Assembly (NCBI GenBank): GCA_905181955.1
Contig: CAJJAC010000004.1
Coordinates: 1 to 64,000, forward strand
Source: SAR86 cluster bacterium SAR86B
GTDB taxonomy: Bacteria > Pseudomonadota > Gammaproteobacteria > Magnimaribacterales > D2472
Length of the DNA stretch: 64,000 nt
Direction: 5' to 3'
Each line of letters begins with the position of its first letter. The first letter of the stretch is position 1. The position numbers and the translations under genes were made by a program. Shown piece by piece: positions 6,093 to 12,150 of this stretch. The notes beneath the pieces were generated by a model that made no database searches, had not been told where the DNA came from, and saw only the letters and a program-made list of their open reading frames with translations.

Positions 6093-6121
6093 AATGTAGC
6101 AATGGCTACGGATGATGTCAA
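6093..6121 (-). promoter_or_regulatory. mntX promoter with MntR operator in spacer
   Basis: On the minus strand, TTGACA (6121-6116, perfect -35), a 17-base spacer and TACATT (6098-6093, -10) form a promoter whose start falls on the mntX ATG. The spacer region contains GTAGCAATGGCTAC (6096-6109), a palindrome with the core TAGC-N4-GCTA of the enterobacterial MntR box. Manganese-bound MntR here would block mntX transcription and could also affect the divergent mntR promoter. Confidence 0.7.
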
Positions 6122-6124
6122 GAG

Positions 6125-6130
6125 TATAAT
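6125..6130 (+). promoter_or_regulatory. -10 box of mntR promoter
   Basis: A perfect TATAAT. The MntR box (6096-6109) covers the corresponding -35 region, suggesting autoregulation. The predicted start near 6137 lies downstream of the ATG at 6102, which supports the GTG at 6171 as the real mntR start. Confidence 0.5.
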
Positions 6131-6170
6131 TTATTTAAAAGCTAATTTAAAAAAAAGGGGGAGGAAACCA

Positions 6171-6581
6171 GTGAAAGATAAAATTAAAGCACGTTCGGTT
6201 CCTTTTTCACGAACCCGTTCACGTCATGCCAGTGAGACCGCTGAAGATTATGTTGAAGCTGTTATGGAGTTGATTGAGGAGCAAGGTGAGTGCAGGGTAC
6301 TCGATCTAGCTCGATATTTTAATGTTAGCCATGTTACCGTTTCTCGTATAGTTAAACGACTGCAGGATGAAAACCTTTTACATTCCAAGCCTTATAAACC
6401 AGTAGAACTTACAGCTAAGGGCTCTAAACTTGCAAAACAAGTTAAGGAGCGTCATGAAGTTGTTTTAGACTTTTTAATTAAGCTAGGCGTTGATAAGGCT
6501 AATGCTGAAATAGACAGTGAGGGTATTGAGCATCATGTAGGCTCAAAAACGCTTGCTGCGATGAAAAGATTTTTAAAATAA
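6171..6581 (+). CDS. mntR: Manganese-responsive regulator MntR (DtxR family)
   Basis: A cytoplasmic DNA-binding repressor that senses Mn(II) and controls manganese transport. From GTG 6171 the product is 136 residues. It has a winged helix-turn-helix (RVLDLARYFNVSHVTVSRIVKRL) and a metal-binding dimerisation half with ERHEVVLDFLIKLGV and EGIEHHV, as in E. coli MntR. GTG 6171 is preferred over ATG 6102 because it follows a strong Shine-Dalgarno sequence (GGGGGAGGA) by about 5 bases, and the promoter -10 lies between the two. It is divergent from the mntX-like gene across an MntR operator. Its end overlaps the convergent sodX end by 9 bases. Confidence 0.9.
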   Translation: MKDKIKARSVPFSRTRSRHASETAEDYVEAVMELIEEQGECRVLDLARYFNVSHVTVSRIVKRLQDENLLHSKPYKPVELTAKGSKLAKQVKERHEVVLDFLIKLGVDKANAEIDSEGIEHHVGSKTLAAMKRFLK

Positions 6582-6863
6582 TTTAAATACAACCCTACCA
6601 ATAACTGCATCCAAGTCATGCGTCATATCATATAAGGGTGAATAATAAGATTTATTGTCACCTAATATTTTTAAAGAATCTCCTGATATAGACTGAACTC
6701 TTTTTACTACTTTTCCAAGATCATTAGTTTCTAAAACAATTACATCATCCACATTAATATTTTTTGTTTTTAAACAAACAACGTAATCATTTGGTTTATA
6801 GGCTGGAAGCATACTGACACCAACTACTTTAAAAAGTCTAAGCAGATTTAAGTACCGGCACAA
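6573..6863 (-). CDS. sodX: Nickel-type SOD maturation protease (SodX-like)
   Basis: A small signal-peptidase-like serine protease (S26/S24-type fold) that removes the N-terminal propeptide of NiSOD so that the mature His1 can bind nickel. Visible motifs are GVSMLPAYKPNDYV with the nucleophilic Ser, and GKVVKRVQSISGD with the general-base Lys. The open frame extends far upstream inside sodN in another frame, and no ATG precedes the catalytic Ser except at implausible positions. TTG 6863-6861, overlapping sodN by 26 bases, gives 96 residues, about normal for SodX; the start is uncertain. It is the last gene of the small protein-sodN-sodX operon. Confidence 0.82.
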   Translation of the reverse strand: MCRYLNLLRLFKVVGVSMLPAYKPNDYVVCLKTKNINVDDVIVLETNDLGKVVKRVQSISGDSLKILGDNKSYYSPLYDMTHDLDAVIGRVVFKLF

Positions 6864-7311
6864 CCATTGCAAGATTAGGTGCGTAGGGTGAAATCTTCGT
6901 TTCAGTTTCAACTTCTTTAGTAGACCAAAACATTTCAGCAAAATCATTAATTTTTGCAAGCAAACTAAGACCATCCTCTCTATGCAAACCTTGCTTACAT
7001 TTAGACCCATCCATCATGATTGAATGAACTAAATCATGCACACCAGGATATTTCTCTATTTGAGCAGCTTTAAAGTAATCACCCCAAATAATAGCAATTT
7101 CATTCTTGGCTATTATTGAATGTTCTTCTTTTTGCTGAACAAGCCTTGTAAATTTTGCTAAATTGTCTTTATCACAACAAGCCGAATCTGGCATTTCATT
7201 AATCAGGTCTATAAACCTAATAACACTTAATGCAGCGTATTGAGCTGCGCCTGGGTCATACACTCCACAAGGTATATCACAATGAGCACTTACCTTTTCT
7301 ACATTAAACAT
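6838..7311 (-). CDS. sodN: Nickel superoxide dismutase
   Basis: It disproportionates superoxide to oxygen and hydrogen peroxide using a Ni(II/III) centre. The 157-residue precursor has a 9-residue propeptide (MFNVEKVSA) followed by the nickel hook HCDIPCGVYDP, in which His1, Cys2 and Cys6 are the known ligands. The rest is the NiSOD four-helix domain. The start ATG 7311 follows an AAGGAG Shine-Dalgarno sequence that lies in the end of the upstream small gene, with 1 base between that stop and this ATG. SodX is directly downstream. The operon promoter carries a Fur-like operator. The peroxide produced is a substrate of KatG, encoded divergently. Confidence 0.96.
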   Translation of the reverse strand: MFNVEKVSAHCDIPCGVYDPGAAQYAALSVIRFIDLINEMPDSACCDKDNLAKFTRLVQQKEEHSIIAKNEIAIIWGDYFKAAQIEKYPGVHDLVHSIMMDGSKCKQGLHREDGLSLLAKINDFAEMFWSTKEVETETKISPYAPNLAMVVPVLKSA

Positions 7312-7506: not shown

Positions 7507-7545
7507 ATGTAAAATAATTATCATTTAGTTTATATTTATTAGCAA
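7507..7545 (-). promoter_or_regulatory. sodN operon promoter with Fur-like operator
   Basis: On the minus strand TTGCTA (7545-7540, 4/6), a 17-base spacer and GATAAT (7522-7517, 5/6) form a promoter starting near 7510. The 19-bp element at 7507-7525 matches the Fur box at 2103 in 14 of 19 positions, with one half-site (ATTATCATT on plus) perfect, and covers the -10. Fur or a Fur-family nickel sensor could act here. The region also lies upstream of katG. Confidence 0.6.
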
Positions 7546-7617
7546 TAAAGTTTTAATATAAATTATTAGAATAATGATTTTATTTTACTGTAAAATCATG
7601 TCTATATATTTTCATAA

Positions 7618-9777
<2,160 letters not shown>

Positions 9778-9826
9778 TATTTAGCTAAGTTAATTCAAAA
9801 TTAAGCATCTTTTTTGAGATAAAAGG

Positions 9827-9856
9827 TTGTATTCCTAGATGAGAATGATTATCATT
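9827..9856 (+). promoter_or_regulatory. Fur-box promoter reading into a gene-free region
   Basis: The 19-bp element GATGAGAATGATTATCATT (9838-9856) matches the perfect Fur box at 2103-2121 in 17 of 19 positions. TTGTAT (9827-9832), 17 bases, TATCAT (9850-9855) repeats exactly the spacing of the TonB receptor promoter, so it should fire to the right with a start near 9862. It lies between the convergent ends of katG and the S46 peptidase gene and cannot serve either. Confidence 0.72.
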
Positions 9857-9861
9857 TACGA

Positions 9862-9991
9862 ACTCGAAGGTTGTTGTTTTAAGGTGTTGAGTTTCCCTTA
9901 TCTACATAGAACCTTAAAAGTGTGTTTTGATGATCTCCTATAAAAAATCAAAGCAAAGTTTCTCTAAAATTTAACCTTCGAGCTCTTTCTT
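9862..9991 (+). ncRNA. Candidate Fur-regulated structured small RNA
   Basis: From the predicted start, nested inverted repeats fill the region. CTCGAAGGTT (9863-9872) pairs with AACCTTCGAG (9973-9982), 10 bp, joining the two ends. Inside, TTTTAAGGT (9877-9885) pairs with ACCTTAAAA (9911-9919), 9 bp with a 25-base loop. AAGGTT (9867-9872) can alternatively pair with AACCTT (9910-9915). CTCTTTCTT follows the outer stem as a modest U-tract. The only ORF noticed is a 14-codon one at 9930-9974 without a clear Shine-Dalgarno sequence. RyhB is the classic Fur-repressed sRNA in this class of bacteria, but no RyhB core sequence is seen. The 3' end is uncertain. Confidence 0.55.
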
Positions 9992-10002
9992 AAATACTAA
10001 CG

Positions 10003-12150
10003 CTATCTAACAATGTTCATTTCATTAATGAGCCTTGTATCTTCCTCAAAGACTTCTAATGTCCAAAGTAGATATCTAGAATCTACATGAATAGTTCTTG
10101 TTTCTGGTACAAATTTATAATCAGAAATAATAGTTTCCAACATTCCATCAAAAGCTAATCCAACAAACTCGCCCTTAGCATTAATTGTTGAAGAGCCAGA
10201 GTTTCCATTGGTTATATCTAAATTAGAAATATAATTAACTGGAACACTTCCAATTGGATCAAACTTGTAGCTGCCATAGTTTTTATCATTGATTAATTTT
10301 AGTTGCTTTACATCAACTTCAAATGGTGAAACTCCAGTATTTTTTTCAGCTATGCCTTCAAGTGTGGTGAAAGGTTTGTAGTAAATACCATCATTCAATT
10401 CAACCCCCATTACATTTCCAAAGGTAACTCTCAAGGTTCCATTAGCATCAGCATATATATCTTTACCCTGTGATTTATAAAATTTTCTAAGTGATTTTAT
10501 AAAGACAGATTTATTTTTTTGCTGCAAACTAGATCTAGCTTTGTTTTTCATTTCACGTTCCATTCCCTCATCAAACATATCTCTTGCAAGCATAATAAAT
10601 GGATCTGATGAACTATTTAGCTCTTCAAGTGATGCATCCAATAAAGCAATTCTTTTAGTCATATCTAATAGATCTGATGGATATGAATACATACCATCAA
10701 CCTCGGCAATAGTAACGTTATATGGCTCATCTAATTTTAGTGCACTACTAAAAATTACTCGCCTATCTTTACTATCAACATCTCTATATCGATTTAATCT
10801 AAAAAGAAAGATACCTTTATCTACCTCTGCATCAAATCTGTATTCCATACCACGCATTCTATTAACTAACCTTTCGTAGTCTCTTTCTTGATAACCAGGT
10901 TCTCTTTCGTTATTAGGCTTAGTTTTTTCATAAGCATGTCTGTATAAACTTGCAGCGGTATTTAAAAGAGTTGATCCGCCATAATACACATTAGTTAAGT
11001 TTTCACTATTTATCTCATTAGTAATCTCTAGCAATGCATCAAGAGCATCTTGCTCAGCAGAACTGCCATTCATCTCTATAAAATCAAGGAATTTATTCCA
11101 ATTCTGTCTTTCTTGTTTAAGTAATTTAAAATTCTTAGCTCCCTCTATTTGCCCACTTATTTTTTTATAATAATTTTCAAATCCACTAATACTGCCTCTG
11201 TACTTTAGCGCCTTCTCTTCATCATCCTTGGTTAGGTCTCTCATTAAATCAATTCCTGATTTCAAATACTCAACATAATTTTCAAATCCAAACTGGACAT
11301 CAAATCTTATTTCTGGGTATGTTAAAAGCCTGTTAGTTCTTCCTGGGTAACCAGCTATCATTACAAAATCACCTTCTTTTACACCTTTTTTAGAGACCTT
11401 TAGAAAGTCCTCTGATTTGTATGGAACATTGTTCTCTGTATATTCTTTACTTTCATTCTCAGGGCTTACATAAGCTCTTAATAGAGCAAAGTCACCGGTA
11501 TGCCTTGGATACATCCAGTTATCTACTTCACCACCATATTCACCAATTGATTGAGGTGGCGCATATACTAATCTCACATCTTTGATGATCATTTTTTTAA
11601 TTAATTGATAGGTTTCACCAGAATAAAAGCTCCTCACCTCACACTGAAATTCTTCACTAGTTTCACAGCCCTTAATTAATTCTTTTCTATTGGATTGAAT
11701 AATTTTATATCTATCATTTTCAGATTTAGCTTGGCTAGCTCCCTCCAAGACTGCTGCAGTTACATTAGTACTCTCTTTGGTGATATAAACTCTAGCACCT
11801 GGTGCAGATGGCGCTTCTTCATCTAAACTTCTTGCAAGAAATCCTGTTTTAAATAAATCTTCTTCCATTCTCTTAGCATTAAATTGTAGATAAGAGCCTT
11901 CAACACAATGGTAGTTTGTAGCTATAAGGCCTGAATCAGATATAAATGCAGCTGAACAACCGCCGAGACTAACCATAGCGCTTAAAGGATGTTCAAATAA
12001 GTCACTAAATTTCTTGATATTACCTTTAAATCCAGCTGCTCTAATATCTTTTTCAATATTTGGAAGCTGGGATGGCTCCCACATACCTTCATCTGCAAAA
12101 AGAGAATCGATTGGTGTTAATAATAAAATAAAAAGAAAGAATCTAGTCAT
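10003..12150 (-). CDS. S46 family dipeptidyl-peptidase, DPP7-like
   Basis: A secreted (periplasmic) serine exopeptidase that removes dipeptides from oligopeptide N-termini. The 715 residues match DPP7/DPP11 length. It has a signal peptide ending SLFA, the catalytic His in TNYHCVEG (His81), a region with the catalytic Asp (DNWMYPRHTGDFALLR), and the nucleophile in TNGNSGSS. In the family, Gly or Arg in the FD(G/R) motif after the nucleophile separates DPP7 (hydrophobic or broad P1) from DPP11 (acidic P1). Here LAFDGM has Gly, so a DPP7-like preference is inferred. It is a single-gene unit, divergent from cysE, with a GGCGGTG Shine-Dalgarno-like sequence. It suggests growth on peptides. Confidence 0.92.
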   Translation of the reverse strand: MTRFFLFILLLTPIDSLFADEGMWEPSQLPNIEKDIRAAGFKGNIKKFSDLFEHPLSAMVSLGGCSAAFISDSGLIATNYHCVEGSYLQFNAKRMEEDLFKTGFLARSLDEEAPSAPGARVYITKESTNVTAAVLEGASQAKSENDRYKIIQSNRKELIKGCETSEEFQCEVRSFYSGETYQLIKKMIIKDVRLVYAPPQSIGEYGGEVDNWMYPRHTGDFALLRAYVSPENESKEYTENNVPYKSEDFLKVSKKGVKEGDFVMIAGYPGRTNRLLTYPEIRFDVQFGFENYVEYLKSGIDLMRDLTKDDEEKALKYRGSISGFENYYKKISGQIEGAKNFKLLKQERQNWNKFLDFIEMNGSSAEQDALDALLEITNEINSENLTNVYYGGSTLLNTAASLYRHAYEKTKPNNEREPGYQERDYERLVNRMRGMEYRFDAEVDKGIFLFRLNRYRDVDSKDRRVIFSSALKLDEPYNVTIAEVDGMYSYPSDLLDMTKRIALLDASLEELNSSSDPFIMLARDMFDEGMEREMKNKARSSLQQKNKSVFIKSLRKFYKSQGKDIYADANGTLRVTFGNVMGVELNDGIYYKPFTTLEGIAEKNTGVSPFEVDVKQLKLINDKNYGSYKFDPIGSVPVNYISNLDITNGNSGSSTINAKGEFVGLAFDGMLETIISDYKFVPETRTIHVDSRYLLWTLEVFEEDTRLINEMNIVR

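Follow-up and report, generated by a model that had tools for sequence, protein, structure and literature searches.

A probable Fur-controlled structured RNA gene between katG and a peptidase gene in a genus of SAR86 bacteria

The locus and its features

SAR86 are abundant bacteria of the surface ocean with small genomes, and the DNA considered here comes from one such genome (1.29 Mb in 13 contigs, 88.8% complete), in which a Fur protein is encoded. The window is the whole stretch of DNA analysed, 64,000 nucleotides in length. Within it, katG ends at 9777 and converges with an S46 peptidase gene whose stop lies at 10003, leaving between them a gap of 225 bases that is home to the RNA element described here. 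An earlier claim that this element is antisense to the 3′ region of the peptidase transcript can therefore concern only its 3′ UTR. Just upstream of katG, a DtxR/MntR-type metal repressor and a nickel superoxide dismutase (6102-7311) form an oxidative-stress and metal cluster. The features of the element and of its proposed target are:

7628-7634, + strand: ATAGGAG, lying in the Shine-Dalgarno region ahead of the katG ATG at 7645; complementary to loop 2 over 7 nt and proposed as its target
9827-9832, + strand: -35 hexamer TTGTAT, read from the sequence
9838-9856, + strand: Fur box GATGAGAATGATTATCATT, 26.8 bits, overlapping the -10 hexamer
9850-9855, + strand: -10 hexamer TATCAT, predicted RNA start at about 9862; spacing as in SAR86 TonB-receptor Fur promoters
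9863-9982, + strand: structured RNA body of about 120 nt, within a transcript that may run from 9862 to about 9992; folding z -4.26; present in five of five genomes
9863-9873, + strand: 5′ arm of the closing stem, pairing with 9972-9982; A-U to U-A double change in G003
9877-9919, + strand: hairpin 1 (9877-9885 with 9911-9919) with the invariant loop motif GAGUUUCCCUUAUC; from folding and alignment
9923-9955, + strand: hairpin 2 (9923-9931 with 9947-9955) with loop 2, UCUCCUAUAA, the proposed anti-Shine-Dalgarno seed; from folding and complementarity to the katG site in five of five genomes
9956-9971, + strand: unpaired, conserved segment that includes AAAGUUUCUCUAAAA and hardly varies among the five genomes
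9972-9982, + strand: 3′ arm of the closing stem, followed by U-rich CUCUUUCUU; U-rich tail in four of five genomes

A Fur box at a predicted promoter

Fur sites were scored with a matrix derived from SAR86 Fur boxes, mostly of other genera together with the box of the window's TonB receptor, and with the box at 9838 left out. Across 810 kb (63%) of the genome only four sites reached at least 18 bits, the next best scoring 13.8: the TonB receptor box at 2103, the box at 9838 upstream of the RNA element, and sites at an SBP_bac_6-type binding protein gene and a ferritin-like gene. Read base by base, the boxes at 9838-9856 and 2103 match at 17 of 19 positions, in agreement with the original prediction, which had also proposed that the two promoters share their spacing. 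This is borne out, a spacer of 17 nt separating TTGTAT from TATCAT here and TTGTAA from TATCAT at 2092-2120. TTG-N17-TATCAT within the box is moreover how Fur promoters of TonB receptors are usually arranged in other SAR86 genera, and it is on this likeness that the promoter call rests: a generic promoter scan reports none here, and the -35 hexamer is poor by strict E. coli consensus. The predicted start near 9862 falls at the closing stem, as had been described.

Among the relatives, the TTG of the -35 hexamer is retained in G004 (TTGTAT) and G003 (TTGTTT), and no -35 is recognisable in G001, which has CTTAAA at that place. The Fur box is essentially invariant in four of the five genomes and degenerate in G002, yet still scores 18.3 bits there. 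By sequence, a box predicted to bind Fur overlaps the promoter of a non-coding RNA.

Fold and conservation of the RNA body

The + strand of the body folds at -30.2 kcal/mol (z -4.26), a value matched by none of 200 shuffles, and the - strand of this genome folds less well (z -2.55). Both stems of the original prediction, one of 10 bp (9863-9872 with 9973-9982) and a nested one of 9 bp (9877-9885 with 9911-9919), are real and perfectly paired; a third helix (9923-9931 with 9947-9955), absent from that prediction, completes an architecture in which a closing stem surrounds two hairpins. Three conserved C/U-rich segments, UUUCCCUUAUC, CUCCUAUAA and UUUCUCUAAAA, are predicted to be unpaired, with C runs shorter than those of IsrR; they are complementary to G-rich sequence of the Shine-Dalgarno type. 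A canonical hairpin and U-run terminator is absent from the element. At the gathering threshold, Rfam matched only a tRNA in the whole window, and a lax search of 9600-10200 returned only chance-level eukaryotic snoRNA and miRNA matches; the expectation that the RNA would resemble neither RyhB nor PrrF in sequence is upheld, with no match to the covariance model of either family.

A covariance search across relatives, run with strict filters, recovered the element from each of the five genomes of the genus and gave no match in 102 further genomes of the family. A two-motif pattern, searched in 203 genomes, had no match in the order outside the genus, and a motif search over the whole order and viral contigs gave matches in the genus alone. 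Compared with G000, the body is 95% identical in G004, 95% in G001, 91% in G003 and 87% in G002; corresponding values are 78%, 92%, 77% and 77% for the coding DNA of the peptidase, and 82%, 53%, 73% and 52% for the 68 bases upstream. The three unpaired motifs are nearly invariant across the five genomes, and all 28 stem pairs are standard in each (140 of 140 cells). One double compensatory change, from A-U to U-A, occurs in the closing stem of G003; the remaining changes in the main helices give G-U pairs on the body strand that would mostly be A-C on the other, and with weaker inner pairs counted, 156 of 160 cells are paired on the body strand against 146 on the opposite one. Body-strand z-scores range from -3.2 to -5.6 across all five genomes, and the opposite strand folds equally well in some of them. 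The covariation score was reached by shuffles 87 times in 500, and covariation alone is weak support.

The search thus found the stems and Fur box kept throughout the genus, with thin covariation, and no small open reading frame, which would have pointed to a protein product, is kept in all five genomes. Because of this conservation, the kept pairs, the wobble pattern and the lack of a shared small frame, the element is read as a structured non-coding RNA from the + strand rather than a protein gene. That it is a Fur-controlled structured RNA gene is very probable.

An inverted body in G002 and alternative readings

One genome departs from this arrangement. In G002, synteny of katG and peptidase is kept in the order katG, an extra 152-aa open reading frame, Fur box, element and peptidase, and the body (L083 11253-11374; also L005) lies in place but reversed with respect to the Fur box and flanks. 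The inversion lies precisely between 12-bp perfect repeats, ACTCGAAGGTTA and TAACCTTCGAGT, formed by the two arms of the closing stem. As a result, the body runs in the direction of the peptidase there and not in that of katG. G002 substitutions keep the pairing of the body strand, which is opposite to the strand that the Fur box of G002 would transcribe. The original proposal that the promoter drives a structured RNA needs correcting for G002, where promoter and body are oppositely oriented. Each species is represented by one genome, and on this sample the inversion may be recent, a one-off, an artefact of amplification or assembly, or a switch; inversions are known to arise by template switching between inverted repeats. 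The extra frame of G002 (L083 10775-11233, between katG and the Fur box) has a lipoprotein-like start and no Pfam match.

Such an arrangement would be tolerable if the element were mainly a 3′ end structure, a terminator or 3′-UTR-derived RNA of the katG or peptidase mRNA, with the Fur box being incidental or serving regulation of the katG region, since either neighbour's transcript could then supply it; its place between convergent genes fits too. The loops, however, are more conserved than a terminator requires, the canonical terminator is missing, and the Fur box belongs to the top four in 810 kb and stands exactly at promoter distance from the RNA start, all of which leaves this reading unlikely. 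Less likely still is a phase-variable invertible element, whose body would flip by recombination between inverted repeats of 10-13 bp, leaving the Fur promoter to transcribe the RNA in one orientation and its complement in the other. The precise inversion between perfect repeats, with synteny intact, is what such an element would leave behind, but it is the only inversion among five genomes, the conservation of the repeats is explained by their double role as closing stem, and a one-off template switch or an amplification chimera in G002 suffices. A variant in which the RNA gene is itself the switch, its closing-stem repeats flipping the body so that one Fur promoter would yield, by cell or by lineage, the anti-Shine-Dalgarno RNA or a complement acting as off state or antidote, is a shade less probable again.

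Expression of a tiny protein from the Fur promoter is highly improbable: a 19-codon GTG frame, VLSFPYLHRTLKVCFDDLL, is open in four genomes and closely preceded by AAGG, but its start directly abuts that AAGG and adjoins a stem, and in G002 the frame is lost to a stop and a one-base deletion. A MITE-like miniature transposable element, suggested by the terminal inverted repeats and the inverted orientation in one genome, is the least probable reading and largely refuted: each of the five genomes has one copy, always at the same locus, no other copies were found in the order, and the Fur box stayed put while the G002 body flipped. An attC-type integron site was also considered and rejected on sequence and general knowledge, its arms facing the wrong way (AAGGTT...AACCTT).

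Proposed action and candidate targets

The preferred reading is of a non-coding RNA gene of about 125-130 nt on the + strand, with a promoter that Fur represses. In iron-rich conditions Fur-Fe would cover the -10 hexamer and silence the gene; under iron scarcity the RNA would be made, its long closing stem and two hairpins holding out the C/U-rich segments UUUCCCUUAUC, UCUCCUAUAA and GUUUCUCUAAAA. These may pair with G-rich ribosome-binding sites and, with no need of Hfq, lower the translation of particular mRNAs; the likeliest targets to emerge are iscU and katG, the latter encoding a heme enzyme next door. The Fur site, the conserved structure and strand of the RNA and the negative search for Hfq are results of the analysis, and from them we infer expression, Fur repression, pairing and targets. 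Anti-Shine-Dalgarno action, taken by itself, is marginally favoured, and the explanation as a whole, a Fur-repressed anti-Shine-Dalgarno RNA acting without Hfq with katG and iscU as likeliest targets, is moderately probable. Against it stand G002, in which transcription from the Fur box would run through the body in reverse, the missing clear -35 of G001 and the missing canonical terminator.

Hfq was detected neither in the genome itself nor in 60 relatives (61 genomes of the SAR86 order from four families, 34 of them at least 90% complete), with control genomes positive.

Targets were sought in the start regions of 738 genes, sampled from about 63% of the genome. Complementarity between loop 2 and the katG ribosome site exists in all five genomes, spanning 7 nt (ATAGGAG) in four and 11 nt in G002, where loop (CCUCC) and site (GGAGG; TTATAGGAGGT) differ together, each having gained the extra base that matches, to give 11 bp at -18.0 kcal/mol. 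ATAGGAG is carried by five of the 738 sampled genes, katG included, and among genes with this motif before ATG only katG was found in all five genomes. By loop 2 duplex ranking in this genome, katG stands only 53rd of 738, and ATAGGAG is in part merely a Shine-Dalgarno sequence. For iscU, placed in the order iscR-iscS-iscU as read from translations, TATAGGAG in G000, G001 and G003 is complementary to loop 2, with a shorter match (TTTAGGAG) in G002. Target prediction thus yielded sites in katG and iscU without a global excess over shuffled controls, duplex energies of the three segments over the 738 start regions being about the same as those of shuffled segments. Because the two sites were also chosen after looking, they are suggestive leads only, and katG as a real target is possible but doubtful.

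A gene provisionally named quinone-oxidoreductase-like carries TATAGGAGAT in G000 and G004; it has no iron link and is a possible target. Searched with one mismatch allowed, the perfect complement of loop 1 (GATAAGGGAAAC) was no commoner in the five genomes than the reversed control and lay at no mRNA start site common to the genus. A 12-nt match of loop 2 to the 5′ region of the peptidase itself (ATTTTTTATAGG) was set aside because it occurs in this genome only and is absent in three relatives. A possible regulator site of katG lies upstream of it at 7527-7555 of the window, where four genomes (G000, G001, G003 and G004) conserve the block TAGTTTATATTTATTAGCAATAAAGTTTT and G002 retains part of it.

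Comparison with known iron-responsive RNAs

The original prediction took the element for a Fur-repressed sRNA in the manner of RyhB and PrrF. Its first half stands, given the conserved box, stems and loops, the lack of a conserved small open reading frame and the lack of an Rfam match; the manner of action does not, the likeness being to IsrR instead. With RyhB (Enterobacteriaceae) and PrrF (Pseudomonas) the element shares its setting as an RNA gene of a gammaproteobacterium repressed by Fur, here by prediction. Expected targets of RyhB and PrrF include iscSUA-type and oxidative-stress genes. RyhB, however, needs Hfq, a gene for which was not detected in the SAR86 order, and the SAR86 RNA has no Rfam match and a more compact, closed structure than RyhB and PrrF.

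IsrR of Staphylococcus is a Fur-repressed iron-sparing sRNA (PMC9410917, PMC11257911). Both RNAs have a Fur-box promoter, an AT-rich genome, several C-rich unpaired regions pairing with Shine-Dalgarno sites (here by prediction), and conserved stems and loops with little covariation; IsrR is Hfq-independent, in keeping with an order in which no Hfq gene was detected, and it targets the catalase katA where the best predicted candidate here is katG. In contrast, the two belong to different phyla and lack sequence or locus homology, and IsrR consists of serial stem-loops with a Rho-independent terminator, whereas the SAR86 RNA is a single closing stem around two hairpins, with neither such a terminator nor an Rfam match. 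FsrA of Bacillus subtilis likewise combines Fur regulation with a C-rich anti-Shine-Dalgarno motif (PMC9410917), but requires the helpers FbpA/B/C, and the SAR86 RNA, again, matches nothing in Rfam.

By analogy, the SAR86 RNA resembles IsrR more than RyhB and would work like IsrR without being IsrR, a likeness most probably of independent origin. It is probably a new and unrelated addition to the known functional class of Fur-repressed iron-sparing RNAs. In the open-access literature searched, SAR86 and sRNA occur together in a single paper, each of them once. A Fur-run RNA in SAR86 would be a direct candidate for post-transcriptional iron rationing and a gammaproteobacterial case resembling IsrR, and its motif and promoter offer a ready test in ocean metatranscriptomes by comparing iron limitation between sites. 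Separately, a TonB-receptor-like gene in G033 (L008, about 1500-1720) has two Fur-like boxes and leader arms, GACTGGGGGGAAG...CTTCCCCCAGTTTTTTT, that resemble a large hairpin with a U run, and is perhaps preceded by a regulated leader or RNA.
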